A DNA stretch of 44,320 nucleotides, from contig JALTWS010000029.1 in assembly GCA_027048495.1 (NCBI GenBank), positions 1 through 44,320 on the forward strand. Reading direction: 5' to 3'. This DNA is from Candidatus Azambacteria bacterium. Lineage in GTDB: Bacteria; Patescibacteriota; Minisyncoccia; GWC2-36-17; M10-OD1-4. Under the pieces are notes generated by a model. It searched no databases and was not told the origin of the DNA. It saw only the letters and a program-made list of their open reading frames with translations. Position 1 is the first letter of the stretch. Each line of letters starts with the position of its first letter. Made by a program: the position numbers and the translations under genes. Positions 13,748 through 42,848 of this stretch are shown in pieces.

Positions 13748-13786
13748 AAACTTCAAAAACCCCCAAGTAGGGGGTTTTTGAAGTTT
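13748..13786. terminator. Strong bidirectional terminator hairpin
   Basis: A 17-bp perfect stem (13748-13764 with 13770-13786) has a 5-nt loop and contains a C5/G5 block next to an A5/T5 block. It ends the gene at 12588 and also works for the minus-strand gene at 13878-14090, which converges on it. Confidence 0.88.
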
Positions 13787-21448: not shown

Positions 21449-21994
21449 ATGTCATCTGTTGTTAGCTTTTGCAAAGATCTTGGTGTTGTGATAAAAGAAG
21501 TGAAAATAGCTTTAGATTTGAAAAGAAGAAATTTTTCCTCAGAGTGGTTTTTTATTGAAGATATAGCATCTTATGGATGCGCTATCCATTCTGCCATAAA
21601 AGAATTTAGGCAATGCAGGTTTTTTGTTACGGACAAGGGGTACTTTGTTATGGGTACTCTCGTAAAAAATCCAATTGTTGATATTCCCATAGTAAAAGCC
21701 ACAATGCTGGTAGATAAAAATATAACACCATTGCTTAGGATTTTTATACTACGCGAAGAGTTGTCCCAAAAAATAATTCCATCAAAAACAGAGATAAACT
21801 CTGAAAAAGATGGTAACAAGCTGAGATTGTTTGCAACGCAAACGGGGAAAATGCCTCATCTTGATCAAACTTTCATTTTTCATATGGAAGATGGATCAGG
21901 GTTTTTTATAGCTCCAACAAAGTATACAGGAGTGTACAGGCATGTAAAATCATTTCCAGAAAAAAAACATCATCCGGCCTGCTCTATGAAGTAA
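21449..21994 (+). CDS. Orphan 181-residue protein with strong ribosome binding site
   Basis: I do not recognise this soluble protein. The first two thirds alternate strands and helices, with a hydrophobic, possibly beta-rich centre (RFFVTDKGYFVMGTLV, about 56-71). The end has several His and Cys residues (KKHHPACSMK). The ATG is set by AAAAGGAGG at 21432-21440. The gene is a single unit with its own promoter in front and a perfect 10-bp terminator at 22003-22032. This architecture matches the orphan genes at 16122 and 27047. Confidence 0.75.
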   Translation: MSSVVSFCKDLGVVIKEVKIALDLKRRNFSSEWFFIEDIASYGCAIHSAIKEFRQCRFFVTDKGYFVMGTLVKNPIVDIPIVKATMLVDKNITPLLRIFILREELSQKIIPSKTEINSEKDGNKLRLFATQTGKMPHLDQTFIFHMEDGSGFFIAPTKYTGVYRHVKSFPEKKHHPACSMK

Positions 21995-22002
21995 ATATTT
22001 TA

Positions 22003-22032
22003 CCCGAGCTGAATTTTCAGCTCGGGTTTTTT
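22003..22032 (+). terminator. Intrinsic terminator
   Basis: A perfect 10-bp stem (22003-22012 with 22017-22026), an ATTT loop and a T6 run end the 181-residue orphan gene and insulate the mraZ promoter. Confidence 0.92.
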
Positions 22033-22060: not shown

Positions 22061-22089
22061 TTGACTTTGGTGGTTTGTGGGTTTATAAT
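22061..22089 (+). promoter_or_regulatory. Promoter of the mraZ division cluster
   Basis: TTGACT (22061-22066), a 17-bp spacer and TATAAT (22084-22089) form the best plus-strand promoter in the window. The predicted start, near 22096, lies at the first AGTGG operator repeat. A direct repeat ACTTTGGTGG occurs at 22043-22052 and 22064-22073, 21 bp apart, overlapping the −35. Confidence 0.82.
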
Positions 22090-22095
22090 TAACAA

Positions 22096-22123
22096 TAGTG
22101 GTTGAAAGTGGGGAAAAGTGGGG
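22096..22123 (+). promoter_or_regulatory. MraZ operator: three AGTGG direct repeats at 10-bp spacing
   Basis: AGTGG occurs at 22097-22101, 22107-22111 and 22117-22121, exactly one helical turn apart. The last two are embedded in the identical unit AAAGTGGGGA. Short direct repeats with one-turn spacing upstream of mraZ are the known binding sites of MraZ octamers in other bacteria. The position directly downstream of the −10 box predicts autorepression. Confidence 0.8.
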
Positions 22124-22169
22124 AATATACTTTTTTCCATTTTCAAACCCAAAGGTCATTTAACTTGGC

Positions 22170-22243
22170 GGCAAATAGAGCTAAGTTCTTAATAAGATTA
22201 AATGTATCAAACTTCCTCTCAATACAGCTTAGCTCTGTTTGCC
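22170..22243 (+). promoter_or_regulatory. Long-stem leader hairpin of mraZ mRNA
   Basis: A 16-bp stem with one G-U pair (22170-22185 with 22228-22243) closes a 42-nt loop in the roughly 168-nt mraZ leader. It ends about 5 nt before the GAGGG ribosome binding site (22249-22253). The loop contains CCTC (near 22215-22218), which could pair with that site. It may control translation or mRNA stability; no known riboswitch class is recognised. Confidence 0.6.
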
Positions 22244-22263
22244 TGCATGAGGGCAAGTTTTAT

Positions 22264-22695
22264 ATGTTTGTTGGAGAATATAAACATTCAATAGATGAAA
22301 AAGGCAGAATAGCGGTGCCTTCAAAATTCAGGAGCTCTTTAAAAAGCGGTGCTGTTGTTACAAAAGGATTGGATAACTGCTTGTTTGTGCTTCCGATGGC
22401 AGAATGGAAAAAGTGGGCATCTGAAATTTCCAAGCTTCCTGTTTCCAAAGCAGACTCAAGGGCTTTTGCAAGGCATATGTTTGGAGAAGCTTCTGATGTT
22501 AAATTGGACGGTCAAGGTAGGATTATTTTGCCAACAAGACTTAAAAAATTTGCCAATATTAAAAAAACAGCTGTTTTTGTAGGGCTTTACAACAAATTAG
22601 AGCTTTGGGATGAAAAGACATGGGAAAGATACAAACAAAAAACAGAAAGGCAAAGCACGCAAATTGCAGAAAGAATGAGCGATCTGGGAATATGA
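22264..22695 (+). CDS. mraZ: Transcriptional regulator MraZ
   Basis: MraZ is a 143-residue AbrB/SpoVT-fold DNA-binding protein that regulates the division and cell-wall cluster. Both DxxxR half-domains are present: DEKGRIAVPSKF near 11-22 and DGQGRIILPTRL near 82-93. The ATG at 22264 is right for the family and has GAGGG about 10 bp upstream. An in-frame ATG at 22102 would add 54 residues that lie in the structured leader and operator, which is implausible. The stop overlaps the rsmH start (ATGA), so the two are translationally coupled. The operator repeats upstream imply autorepression. Confidence 0.95.
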   Translation: MFVGEYKHSIDEKGRIAVPSKFRSSLKSGAVVTKGLDNCLFVLPMAEWKKWASEISKLPVSKADSRAFARHMFGEASDVKLDGQGRIILPTRLKKFANIKKTAVFVGLYNKLELWDEKTWERYKQKTERQSTQIAERMSDLGI

Positions 22696-23561
22696 TCCAC
22701 AAGCCTGTTCTTTTAAATGAAATCATTGAAATTTTAAGCCCTAAAAAAGGAGATATTTTTGTTGACGGGACAGCAAACGGAGGCGGGCACACTTTGGCAA
22801 TCTGGGAGAAAATAAAGCCAAGCGGAAAAATTATAGCAATAGACAAAGATAAAGAAGCAACAAAAAGCCTGCAAAAAAAAGCAAAAAGAAAAAACATAAA
22901 AATAGTTTGCGCAAGCTATGCTGATCTGAAAAATATCATAGACAAGCAAGACTTCGGAAACATTTCTGGAATTTTGCTTGATCTGGGATATTCAAGCTTT
23001 CACATTGAAAAGTCAAAAAGGGGATTTTCATTTCAAAAAGACGAACCTTTAATAATGAGATATGACGCAAACAAAGATGAGCTTTCTGCTTATGATGTCA
23101 TAAACAGCATGCCAGAAAAAGAGCTTGCAGATATTATTTACAAATACGGAGAGGAGAAAAATTCAAGAAAAATAGCAAAAAAGATAGTCCAAAAAAGAAA
23201 AGAAAAAAAGATAGAAACATCTTTGGAACTGGCAGAAATCATAAAAAGCGCATTTTCAAAAAAAAGATATAAAATACATCCCGCAACAAAAACTTTCCAA
23301 GCTTTAAGGATATTTGTAAATGATGAGCTTGGGGAGCTAGAAAGATTTTTGCCTCAGGTGGTTGATGTTTTAAAAAAGAAAGGAAAGCTTGCTGTAATAT
23401 CATTTCATTCTTTGGAGGATAGGATAGTAAAGAGGTTTTTAAAAGAAAAAAAAGATGTGTTTAAAATTTTAACCAAAAAGCCAATTACGCCTTCAAAAGA
23501 AGAGATAATAAAAAATCCAAGATCAAGGTCAGCAAAGCTTAGGGTAGCAGAAAAAATATAG
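22692..23561 (+). CDS. rsmH: 16S rRNA (cytosine-1402-N4)-methyltransferase RsmH
   Basis: This 289-residue SAM-dependent enzyme methylates N4 of C1402 in 16S rRNA. It shows the SAM motif FVDGTANGGGHT near 26-37, ILLDLGYSS near 96-104, the family-specific FQALRIFVNDEL stretch and the late ISFHSLEDRIVKRF and RSRSAKLRVAE segments. The ATG at 22692 overlaps the mraZ stop; a longer start at 22620 would lie inside mraZ without purpose. It is the second gene of the cluster, as in most bacteria. Confidence 0.96.
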   Translation: MIHKPVLLNEIIEILSPKKGDIFVDGTANGGGHTLAIWEKIKPSGKIIAIDKDKEATKSLQKKAKRKNIKIVCASYADLKNIIDKQDFGNISGILLDLGYSSFHIEKSKRGFSFQKDEPLIMRYDANKDELSAYDVINSMPEKELADIIYKYGEEKNSRKIAKKIVQKRKEKKIETSLELAEIIKSAFSKKRYKIHPATKTFQALRIFVNDELGELERFLPQVVDVLKKKGKLAVISFHSLEDRIVKRFLKEKKDVFKILTKKPITPSKEEIIKNPRSRSAKLRVAEKI

Positions 23562-23565
23562 TTTT

Positions 23566-23880
23566 ATGAAAAAAACACAAAAAAAACCAAAAACAGAAAA
23601 GATAAAAACAGGGATATCAGTATGTCTTACTTTTATTGTTTTTGTTTTTGTGTTTTTTTCTTTTGAAGCTTTAAAATTTGCTGATTTAAAAAATGAAAGA
23701 TTGCAAAAAATAAATCTAATTTCTCAGTTAGAAAAGGAAAATGAAAAATTAGAAATTGAAGTAGTAAGATTGCAGGCCGCACAAAATTTAAGAGAAAAGG
23801 CAATTTCACTTGGCATGACAAATGTTTCAGAAGTTTCTTATCTTAACATAGCTTCTGAAGAGGTTGCGATAAACAGGTAA
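23566..23880 (+). CDS. FtsL/DivIC-like septum protein
   Basis: This 104-residue protein has a basic cytoplasmic tail, one membrane helix (about 19-36) and an extracellular coiled coil (about 40-75, leucine/glutamate heptads) followed by a short tail. Topology, size and position between rsmH and ftsI match FtsL, which joins the FtsQ/DivIB complex and activates septal synthesis by FtsWI. Sequence conservation of FtsL is low everywhere, so the call relies on context. The gene starts 4 bp after rsmH. Confidence 0.8.
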   Translation: MKKTQKKPKTEKIKTGISVCLTFIVFVFVFFSFEALKFADLKNERLQKINLISQLEKENEKLEIEVVRLQAAQNLREKAISLGMTNVSEVSYLNIASEEVAINR

Positions 23881-23892
23881 AGTTAAAGTTTT

Positions 23893-25626
23893 ATGGTTGC
23901 CTTTTTTCAAAGACTTTTTAAAAAAAAAGATGAAAATTTTAGGGTAACAGTAATTTTCTTATTTGTTGTTTTTTTATTTGTTGCTGTTTTGATGAAGTTT
24001 TTTTTACTGCAGATTTTGTATTATGAAAAATTTGCAAAAAAAGCAGACAGCCAAAGACAGCTTTCTTCTTCTGTTGAGCCAGAAAGAGGGAAAATATTTT
24101 TGGTTGATAGGTTCAACAAATCTTTTGAGTTGGCAACAAACGGAAAAGAATATGAAGTTTTTGCCATTCCAAAAGAAATAGAAAACAAAGAGGAGTTTGC
24201 AAGGTTGGTTTCGGAGCTCTTGGAAGTTGATTATGATGTTATTTTAAAAAGAATTTCAAAAAAAGATGATCCTTATGAACCAGTAAAATCAAAAGTATCT
24301 GAAGAGGACAAGTTAAAACTGGACGCTTTAAATCTAAAAGGTTTAGGATTTAAAGAAACGGTAACAAGGGTATATCCGCAGGGTAGTTTGGCTTCTCATG
24401 TTTCTGGTTTTTTAAGTAAAAAAAATGATAACGGGGTTGGGCAATACGGCATAGAGGAATATTTTAACAAAGAACTTTCCGGAAAGCCCGGATTTTTTTC
24501 AGGAGAAAAAGACACTTTTAAATTTGCCTTGGCAAGCAAAGAGGTGAAGAAGTACTCTGCTATAAACGGAAGTTATGTATTTTTATCTTTAGATCCAAAT
24601 GTTCAGTTCAAAATAGAAGATGAGCTTAAAGCGGCCGTGGAAAAATGGGAGGCAGAGTCTGGTTCTGTTATCGTTATGGATCCGAAAACAGGCAGGATTT
24701 TAGGAATGGCAAACTATCCAAATTTTGATCCTAATAAATATTATGAACAAAAAGATATCTCTGTTTTTCAAAATAAGGCTGTTTCTTCACAGTATGAGCC
24801 AGGGTCAATATTTAAGCCAATAACCATGGCAATAGGCATAGATGTTGGAGCGGTAACTCCAAAAACTGTTTATGAAGATAAAGGCTATGTCTCTCTTTCT
24901 GGATATACAATACGAAATTATGACGGCAAAGCAAGAGGAGAAAAAAATATGACCGAAGTATTGGAAGAGTCTTTAAATACAGGGACGGTCTTTGTTGTCA
25001 GTAAGATAGACAAAGATGTTTATTTGGATTACGTTAAAAATTTTGGATTTGGAGAAAAAACCAATATAGATTTGCCTGCCGAAGCAAAAGGTAATATAAA
25101 AAATTTATATTCCAAAAGGGATATTAATTTTGCTACTGCTTCTTTTGGGCAGGGTATAGCAGTTACTCCTATTCAGATAGTATCTGCAATATCAGCAATA
25201 GCAAACGGAGGGGTTCTTATGAGACCTCATGTTGTTGACCAAATATTTCATGCTGACGGATCAAAAGAGTATACAAAACCTCAAAAGATAAGAAGGGTTG
25301 TTTCAGAAGATACGGCAAAAAAGGTGCAAACAATGCTTGTTTCTGTTGTAGAAAATGGATTTGATAAAGCTAAAATTCCCGGGTACTTTGTAGCAGGAAA
25401 AACCGGTACCGCACAAATACCAAATTATGGCAAAAAAGGATATTCGGAAGATACAATCCATTCTTTTGTCGGATTTGCTCCCGCTTATGATGCTAAATTT
25501 ACAGTTTTAATAAAACTGGAAAAACCCAAAGGAGTAAGGTTTGCTTCTCAGTCTTTGCTGGATCCGTTTAAAAATATAATGAAGTTTTTGCTTAATTATT
25601 ATGAAGTTCCGCCTGATTATCAGTAA
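23893..25626 (+). CDS. ftsI: Division transpeptidase FtsI (PBP2/PBP3-type)
   Basis: This 577-residue class B penicillin-binding protein cross-links septal peptidoglycan. One membrane helix (about 20-40) is followed by the dimerisation domain with its ERGKIFLVDR-type box and then the transpeptidase domain with all three active-site motifs: S305-x-x-K308 (GSIFKP), S360-L-N362 and K503-T-G-T506. No PASTA domain follows. Start spacing (12 bp after the FtsL-like stop) and order are as expected for the cluster. The lack of a Shine-Dalgarno sequence is common among genes inside operons here. Confidence 0.95.
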   Translation: MVAFFQRLFKKKDENFRVTVIFLFVVFLFVAVLMKFFLLQILYYEKFAKKADSQRQLSSSVEPERGKIFLVDRFNKSFELATNGKEYEVFAIPKEIENKEEFARLVSELLEVDYDVILKRISKKDDPYEPVKSKVSEEDKLKLDALNLKGLGFKETVTRVYPQGSLASHVSGFLSKKNDNGVGQYGIEEYFNKELSGKPGFFSGEKDTFKFALASKEVKKYSAINGSYVFLSLDPNVQFKIEDELKAAVEKWEAESGSVIVMDPKTGRILGMANYPNFDPNKYYEQKDISVFQNKAVSSQYEPGSIFKPITMAIGIDVGAVTPKTVYEDKGYVSLSGYTIRNYDGKARGEKNMTEVLEESLNTGTVFVVSKIDKDVYLDYVKNFGFGEKTNIDLPAEAKGNIKNLYSKRDINFATASFGQGIAVTPIQIVSAISAIANGGVLMRPHVVDQIFHADGSKEYTKPQKIRRVVSEDTAKKVQTMLVSVVENGFDKAKIPGYFVAGKTGTAQIPNYGKKGYSEDTIHSFVGFAPAYDAKFTVLIKLEKPKGVRFASQSLLDPFKNIMKFLLNYYEVPPDYQ

Positions 25627-25635
25627 TGTAAAAAA

Positions 25636-26919
25636 ATGAAAAAAGCATTGGAAAAAATCTTAAAACTTCTTGCAATTTTGACCATAAAAAGGTACAAGCC
25701 AAAAGTTATAGCAATAACCGGCAATGTAGGCAAAACAAGTACCAAAGATGCTGTATTTGAAGTTTTATCAAAAAAACAAAAAGCAAGAAAAAGCCAAAAA
25801 AGCTATAACAACGAAATAGGCGTTCCGGTTGCTATTTTGGGCATAAAAGCAGAAAATAATATTTTTTTGTGGTTTTTTTATTTGGCGCTTTCTGTTTTTA
25901 AGCTTATTTATACAAGATATCCTAAAATTTTGGTTTTAGAGTACGGCGTGGACAAGCCAAACGACATGGATTATTTGCTTGAAATTGCTGTTCCTGATAT
26001 AGCTGTTGTTACCGCTTTGGGAGATATACCTGTGCATCTTGAAAATTTTTCTTCTCCATCTGAGCTTGTAAGAGAGAAAACAAAATTGCCAAAAGCGGTA
26101 AAAAAAGAAGGGAAGGTTGTTTTAAATGCTGATTTTCCATTAGTTGAGCAGATGAAAGAAAAAACCAAAGCAAAAGTTTTTATGTATGGATTTTCTTCTT
26201 TTGCTGATTTTAAAATATTGGATCCTGAAATAAAATTTTCCCAAATAAATGAAGTAAATGTGCCTTCTGGAACATCTTTTAAAGTTGAATATAAAGGGAG
26301 TATAGTGCCTGTAAGAATAAATGAGTTTGGAATTCCAAATGTGTATGCGGCCGCTTGTGCTTGTTTTTTGGGCGTATTGAACGGAATGAATTTGGTGGAG
26401 GCTTCAGAAGCAGTATCTTCTTATAAGGCTCCAAAAGGCAGAATGAACCTTATTTTTGGCGCAAAAGACACATTTATATTAGACGACAGCTACAATGCGT
26501 CTCCATCTTCTATGATTGCTTCTTTGGAAACTTTCAAAAAAATTCCGGCAAAAAGAAAAGTTGCTGTTTTGGGAGATATGCTGGAAATTGGCAAGTATTC
26601 AGAAGAAGCGCACAGAAGTTGCGCAAAACTTGCCGCTTCTTTTTGTGATGTTATTATTGCTGTTGGCACAAAGTCACTATTTGTTGTTGATGAAGCTCAA
26701 AAACATGGATTTGAAAAAGGAGAAAATTTATTTTATTTTGAAACATCAGAGAAGCTTTCAGAAAAAATATATGACTTAATCCAAAAAGGAGACTTTATTT
26801 TATTTAAGGGATCTCAAGGAGTTCGCCTTGAAAAGGCTATAAAAGAAATTTTAAAAGATAAAAGAAACGCAGACAAATTTTTAGTCAGGCAAAGTAAAAA
26901 ATGGTTGAAAAAAAATTAA
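25636..26919 (+). CDS. murF: MurF-like Mur ligase lacking the N-terminal domain
   Basis: This 427-residue Mur ligase should join D-Ala-D-Ala to UDP-MurNAc-tripeptide. The ATP loop TGNVGKTSTK begins at about residue 28, so the normal 80-90-residue N-terminal substrate-binding domain is missing or reduced to one helix. The central domain (NNEIGVPVAILG, HLENF) and the C-terminal domain (LDDSYNASPSSM near 280-291, then a LGDMLEIG motif) are typical of MurF. A free N-terminal domain is not seen nearby. It is 10 bp after ftsI; murE, usually between the two, is absent. A related Mur-type ligase with another substrate remains possible. Confidence 0.85.
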   Translation: MKKALEKILKLLAILTIKRYKPKVIAITGNVGKTSTKDAVFEVLSKKQKARKSQKSYNNEIGVPVAILGIKAENNIFLWFFYLALSVFKLIYTRYPKILVLEYGVDKPNDMDYLLEIAVPDIAVVTALGDIPVHLENFSSPSELVREKTKLPKAVKKEGKVVLNADFPLVEQMKEKTKAKVFMYGFSSFADFKILDPEIKFSQINEVNVPSGTSFKVEYKGSIVPVRINEFGIPNVYAAACACFLGVLNGMNLVEASEAVSSYKAPKGRMNLIFGAKDTFILDDSYNASPSSMIASLETFKKIPAKRKVAVLGDMLEIGKYSEEAHRSCAKLAASFCDVIIAVGTKSLFVVDEAQKHGFEKGENLFYFETSEKLSEKIYDLIQKGDFILFKGSQGVRLEKAIKEILKDKRNADKFLVRQSKKWLKKN

Positions 26920-26944: not shown

Positions 26945-27017
26945 GGCCCCTTCGTCTAGTGGCCTAGGACGCCGCCCTCTCACGGCGGTAACAGGGGTTC
27001 GAGTCCCCTAGGGGCTG
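26945..27017 (+). tRNA. tRNA-Glu (anticodon CTC)
   Basis: A complete cloverleaf: acceptor GGCCCCT (26945-26951) pairs with AGGGGCT (27010-27016), the anticodon stem is CCGCC/GGCGG with loop CTCTCAC, and the T arm is AGGGG/CCCCT with GTTCGAG. The discriminator is G73. The first acceptor pair is G-U rather than the usual G-C. CCA is not encoded, so it is added after transcription. Confidence 0.95.
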
Positions 27018-30959: not shown

Positions 30960-30987
30960 ATTTTAAAACACGATCGTGTTTTAAAAT
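30960..30987. repeat. Perfect 28-bp palindrome centred on CGATCG
   Basis: Both arms are 14 bp and match perfectly around CACGATCGTG, with AT-only outer arms. It lies between convergent genes and can act as a terminator in either direction, but the shared CGATCG core with the palindromes near 39.5-39.8 kb suggests another role too. Confidence 0.85.
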
Positions 30988-31004
30988 AACAAAAACATCT
31001 TTTT

Positions 31005-31054
31005 AAAAATCATCATTTTAAAATGCGATCGTGTTTTAAATTGATGATTTTTTT
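31005..31054. repeat. Near-perfect 48-bp palindrome centred on CGATCG, with T-run
   Basis: Arms 31005-31028 and 31029-31052 pair over 24 bp with one T-T mismatch and a TG/TG wobble pair, and a T-run ends at 31054. Together with the preceding palindrome it forms a direct repeat of about 55 bp (both begin ATCTTTTT or similar). It is probably also the terminator for the convergent genes at 30921 and 31140. Confidence 0.82.
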
Positions 31055-39475: not shown

Positions 39476-39515
39476 CTCACTCACTCAACTCACGATCGTG
39501 AGTTGAGTGAGTGAG
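39476..39515. repeat. Perfect 40-bp palindrome centred on CGATCG
   Basis: Each 20-bp arm matches perfectly around CACGATCGTG; the outer part is a CTCACTCACTCA-type microrepeat. It is the longest perfect palindrome in the window. No T-run follows on either side, so it is not a standard terminator. Confidence 0.9.
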
Positions 39516-42804: not shown

Positions 42805-42848
42805 CCCACCAAAAAACCAAGAGCTGTTGCTCTTGGTTTTTTGGTGGG
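42805..42848. terminator. Strong bidirectional terminator
   Basis: A perfect 20-bp stem (42805-42824 with 42829-42848) with a TGTT loop has A6 and T6 blocks inside it. It separates hepT from the convergent kelch-like gene. Confidence 0.92.

Follow-up and report, generated by a model that had tools for sequence, protein, structure and literature searches.

The window analysed here is a stretch of 44,320 nucleotides from Candidatus Azambacteria, corresponding to contig C29 of a 0.80 Mb genome in 46 contigs. It carries mraZ (22264–22695; PF02381, E 4.3e-43; ATG at 22264) as the first gene of an operon, followed at 22692–26919 by rsmH/mraW, an FtsL/DivIC-like gene and genes for a penicillin-binding transpeptidase (ftsI-like) and a Mur ligase (murF-like); from mraZ onward the gene order is that of an ordinary dcw operon start, and these genes, like all features of the leader described below, lie on the + strand. 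The nearest named relatives of this MraZ belong to Patescibacteria MAGs (Uhr-, Magasanik-, Falkow- and Buchananbacteria). Upstream, an intrinsic-terminator-like hairpin with a T tract (22002–22027) closes the preceding transcription unit, and a strong sigma70-type promoter, TTGACT-17-TATAAT (22061–22089; 11/12), follows, from which the mraZ transcript would be expected to start at about 22095. An identical promoter serves the mraZ leader of G001, a genome from a sister genus in the same family, whose MraZ is 78% identical and which provides the second of the two sequences compared here. In G001 this leader lies directly after uvrA, unlike in the window, where a 181-aa ORF (21449–21994) without any Pfam match intervenes between uvrA and mraZ.

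The mraZ leader is about 170 nt long in the window, and about 170–265 nt in the two family members. Its early transcribed region contains three MraZ boxes (22098–22121), with GTGG at 22098, 22108 and 22118 in 10-bp phase, and among 129 related mraZ genes most are preceded by phased [AT]GTGG boxes. The distance from boxes to ATG is some tens of bases in most relatives, as against ~140 in the window and ~230 in G001, and in these two leaders it is the extra bases that hold the structured element. A Shine-Dalgarno-like GAGGG lies at 22249–22253 in the window, without an equivalent placement in G001.

As RNA the boxes are also predicted to pair, providing the 5' arm of a hairpin, H1 (22101–22148; z −4.75), which an earlier note on this DNA had missed and whose 3' arm is a G.U-tolerant complement of the boxes; the equivalent hairpin in G001 gave z −5.03. 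Within the 15 inner pairs no box position differs between the two genomes, and six of the seven substitutions on the other arm keep pairing, with P = 0.007 if one third of substitutions keep a pair and P = 0.26 if all are transitions, so that the pattern is suggestive only. When 167 mraZ leaders were ranked for boxes paired with downstream sequence as an arm of an RNA hairpin, 17 reached p < 0.05 (8 expected); the window came first, with further cases in L115, L103, L061 and L120.

Beyond H1 and a linker, CAAAGGTCATT (22150–22160), that is identical in G001 at 11 of 11 positions, lies the long hairpin P1. The earlier note had placed a 16-bp stem at 22170–22185 with 22228–22243; the stem was found at exactly these positions, with one G.U pair, and extends to 20 bp, comprising 18 contiguous pairs (22170–22187 with 22226–22243), a bulged U22244 and two further pairs (22168–22169 with 22245–22246). 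P1 is interrupted above by an asymmetric internal loop, the longer strand of which, CUCUCAAUAC, is conserved; the conserved 3' strand CTCTCAATAC (22216–22225) is identical in G001 at 10 of 11 positions. A small apical hairpin, UCUU-AAU-AAGA (22187–22197), caps the structure in the window; in G001 a 10-bp stem takes its place. The region 22163–22250 folds at −29.0 kcal/mol, compared with −15.7 ± 2.7 for shuffled sequences (z −4.9; 0 of 200 as good), the whole window leader at z −5.3, and the P1 equivalent in G001 at z −6.0. Stem length alone is weak evidence, since shuffled 44-kb sequences yielded ~1.5 (0–3) G.U-tolerant stems of at least 16 bp. The case for P1 is carried by folding energy and conservation, and on these same grounds, rather than on stem length alone, a chance origin of the hairpin was ruled out.

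Against a neutral expectation of 43% identity at the fourfold-degenerate sites of uvrA and rsmH, 80 of 106 positions of the whole core are identical between the window and G001 (P = 8e-12). Conservation is high in the 5' arm of P1 (22168–22187; 18/20) and in its 3' arm (22226–22246; 19/21), while the apical loop (13/27) and the tail (6/10) are both neutral. All 20 pairs of P1 are retained in G001, 17 of them unchanged, three substituted and none broken. Compensatory changes, which the earlier note had asked for in related leaders, were found in this one homologue: the two-sided replacement of U-A by C-G (U22187>C with A22226>G) and two wobble changes (C-G to U-G and G-C to G-U). Sliding the pairing register lowered the paired cells from 100% to 22–50%; a column-shuffle control on P1 pairing (250/500) cannot discriminate with two sequences, since at that number no covariation statistic can reach significance, and a constraint unrelated to pairing could explain why the arms are so conserved in primary sequence. 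The loop is 42 nt long in the window and 50 nt in G001, and this altered length, together with the use of G.U pairs, points to RNA rather than DNA symmetry. Because the pairs of P1 are kept and its arms and CUCUCAAUAC are conserved far above fourfold sites, and the apical loop is not, comparison of the sequences indicates that the element is a constrained RNA fold, neither chance nor coding.

A coding origin, as an N-terminal extension of MraZ, was rejected, as the frame that is open across the hairpin in the window does not exist in G001 (open frames of 198 and 147 aa, respectively), and no conserved ORF for a leader peptide runs through the element in the two genomes. An extra basal helix, GGUCAUU / GCAURGGG, was inconsistent when inspected by eye in both sequences. 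In G001, the segment just before mraZ (L050:2050–2096) has a predicted tight fold of its own, in which AGGGAG, 28 nt before the ATG, is fully paired.

We searched 384 genomes of the class with a sequence pattern and a covariance model and recovered only two copies, one per genome and both before mraZ, so that the copy in G001 is the sole homologue recovered; being single-copy, the element was ruled out as a repeat or mobile element. The locus is absent from the assembly of another genome of the family (G002), and no homologue of the leader element was found in viral contigs. At gathering threshold, Rfam 15 matched only a tRNA at 26945 in the window, and no Rfam family matched the leader, in agreement with the earlier reader, who had recognised no riboswitch. 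The covariance model RF01746 gave no match at gathering level in the window, nor at E ≤ 5 in both leader loci; sub-threshold Rfam matches in the leaders (L20 leader, sraA and others) scored far below gathering and were treated as chance. An attenuator was rejected, there being no conserved terminator in the leader (a weak overlapping candidate in the window and none in G001). A literature search for riboswitches and other structured RNAs of the Candidate Phyla Radiation returned no paper.

Other leaders of the group contain a different motif, the strand-specific octamer TGCTTGTC (mostly ATGCTTGTC), which was found between boxes and ATG in 11 of 209 related mraZ leaders (L057, L066, L067, L081, L103, L104, L111, L112, L115, L116 and L125), 25–92 nt before the ATG. 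Single-letter variants occurred at most four times each and the reverse complement once. In 9 of the 11 the octamer occupies the loop of a hairpin of at least 6 pairs (mean 8.1 bp, compared with 3.9 for shuffled flanks), the stems being unrelated in sequence but complementary and the loop constant; a longer form, TATGCTTGTC, was not clearly enriched genome-wide. Judged from these sequences, this hairpin appears to be another, unrelated RNA motif of mraZ leaders, present in other lineages of the group. In the Magasanikbacteria leaders L104 and L111 the ATGCTTGTC loop is flanked by a shared long inverted repeat, ACACAGATCACACAGAT...ATCTGTGCTATCTGTGT, different from P1. Elsewhere in the window, the longest inverted repeat (30962–31040) has a 26 bp stem, TTTAAAACACGATCGTGTTTTAAAAT, each arm of which is itself palindromic, and three perfect Watson-Crick hairpins, possibly terminators, with stems of 20, 18 and 17 bp and loops of 4–5 nt, lie at 42805–42848, 39476–39515 and 13748–13786.

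Our leading explanation, which we hold tentatively, is that the hairpin forms the central part of a cis-acting RNA leader, specific to this lineage, on the mRNA of the mraZ-rsmH-ftsL-ftsI-murF operon, most likely a constitutive platform. Transcription from about 22095 would copy the MraZ operator first, and as RNA the operator would fold into H1 and shut the 5' end of the transcript. The conserved linker would then be followed by P1 as a permanently folded 20-bp stem carrying the asymmetric internal loop, with CUCUCAAUAC as its conserved longer strand, under an apical hairpin that is free to vary. P1 might serve as a constitutive site at which a sequence-specific trans factor docks or processing takes place and, together with protection of the 5' end, the platform would determine how stable the operon mRNA is or how well it is translated, atop the action of MraZ at the DNA. 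The fold itself is a prediction of the folding model, and the trans factor and the effect on the mRNA are conjecture. A bolder version, which we consider doubtful, is that the leader RNA is of an undescribed type and gives the MraZ operator two uses, as repressor boxes in the DNA and as the RNA arm of H1; together with the conserved P1 platform this would tie autorepression of transcription to control of the whole division operon after transcription, in a lineage with reduced genomes.

A translational switch had been suggested in the earlier note, which observed that the stem ends just before the ribosome binding site and that CCTC in the loop (22215–22218) might pair with GAGG of that site (GAGGG at 22249–22253). 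In the window the site does begin 2 nt after the stem, and the complementarity proved longer than proposed: the loop segment GUAUCAAACUUCCUCUCA (22204–22221) is complementary to UGAGGGCAAGUUUUAUAU, which spans the ribosome binding site and start region, over 16 pairs with two mismatches (GUAU.AAACUU.CUCUCA with UGAGGG.AAGUUU.AUAU; p = 0.004 versus shuffled loops), although the test was post hoc. Such a switch would alternate between P1, with the ribosome binding site open, and a hairpin of 22204–22221 with 22248–22265 that hides this site and the start codon, the freed 5' arm of P1 then pairing upstream (ACUUGGC/GCUAAGU). The fully formed alternative fold, when enforced, reached −60.6 compared with −67.5 kcal/mol. 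It excludes the 20-bp stem, is 6.9–8.3 kcal/mol worse at equilibrium with a pairing probability below 1e-5, and P1 would be completed before it during transcription; as a pseudoknot beside P1 the same pairing is impossible, as the 20 bp would have to be bridged by 1–3 nt. The corresponding segments of G001 are complementary only at chance level (p = 0.33), and the stem there lies ~100 nt from the start codon with no adjacent ribosome binding site, so the conserved link that a switch would need is not supported. Given the exclusion of P1, the energy cost, and the chance complementarity and distant start codon in G001, we regard a switch as possible in the window genome only and not favoured, and on the whole unlikely. 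The constitutive platform is preferred to it in view of the invariant stem and internal-loop strand, the free apical loop and the variable distance to the gene.

By analogy with the autoregulated rnc leaders and the T7 processing signals (R1.1-type), P1 might instead be an RNase III target, as the earlier note also suggested, where cutting of the stem would take off the 5' leader segment and set the half-life of the mRNA. The stem is near two helical turns (~20 bp) with an internal loop above it, and a gene for RNase III is encoded in both the window genome and G001. RNase III substrates require shape rather than sequence, whereas here it is the very letters of the linker, loop strand and arms that are conserved, and we think processing improbable, in about the same degree as the switch; RNase III remains a candidate partner of the platform. 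Strong sequence conservation of the leader also speaks for an sRNA source, that is, a leader released by attenuation or cleavage and acting in trans, for which UpsM in the mraZ leader of Rhodobacteraceae is a precedent (PMC5089854), as does a terminator-like site at 22237–22258 in the window. This site is weak, though, and overlaps the 3' arm of P1 and the ribosome binding site, and the G001 leader has none, which makes this analogy quite unlikely to apply. The inverted symmetry and highly conserved arms would also fit a protein-binding palindrome or cruciform in the DNA, but the arms are 42–50 bp apart with a spacing that differs by 8 bp, two further G001 pairs would be G.T as DNA and are valid wobble pairs as RNA, and U.G pairs are kept in both genomes; such an element seems very unlikely. 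Least probable of all is a neutral or relic inverted repeat, such as a functionless remnant of a mobile element: the element is confined to a single family and absent from all other leaders examined, as a relic might be, but it is single-copy in each genome and its conservation is far above neutral.

Several known systems resemble parts of this leader. The phased GTGG repeats at the promoter are shared with the MraZ boxes through which MraZ autorepression operates in E. coli and Mollicutes, and they match the Mollicutes site, AAAGTG[T/G] direct repeats (PMC8475190); in the window, by contrast, the boxes would double as one arm of H1. RNase III-processed leader hairpins likewise have a long leader stem with an asymmetric internal loop in organisms that encode RNase III, but the sequence of the window element is conserved well beyond shape, and cleavage here is putative. 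The mraW RNA motif of Actinobacteria (RF01746), recorded in C. glutamicum as an observed mraW 5' UTR (PMC3890552), is also a structured RNA and a candidate cis-regulator in the 5' UTR of an mraZ/mraW-type operon; it belongs to another phylum, its covariance model is unmatched, and the window element lies upstream of mraZ with MraZ boxes. UpsM of Rhodobacteraceae is an unusually long, family-restricted structured mraZ leader as well, compared with leaders of at most 70 nt in other taxa, and it has a strong Rho-independent terminator and yields a 206-nt sRNA with RNase E/Hfq processing (PMC5089854), whereas the leaders of the window and G001 lack a conserved terminator. Since the element fails both to match RF01746 and to show a conserved terminator, it would be a new, small, family-restricted leader RNA outside both, and the best reading is a lineage-restricted cis-acting dcw leader RNA, analogous to mraW RNA and UpsM and unrelated to either. 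Little is known of how the dcw operon is controlled after transcription, and regulation in Patescibacteria has hardly been charted; a constrained RNA before mraZ would give a concrete test case and, alongside UpsM and mraW RNA, would point to the evolution of unrelated leader RNAs at this one operon in separate lineages.
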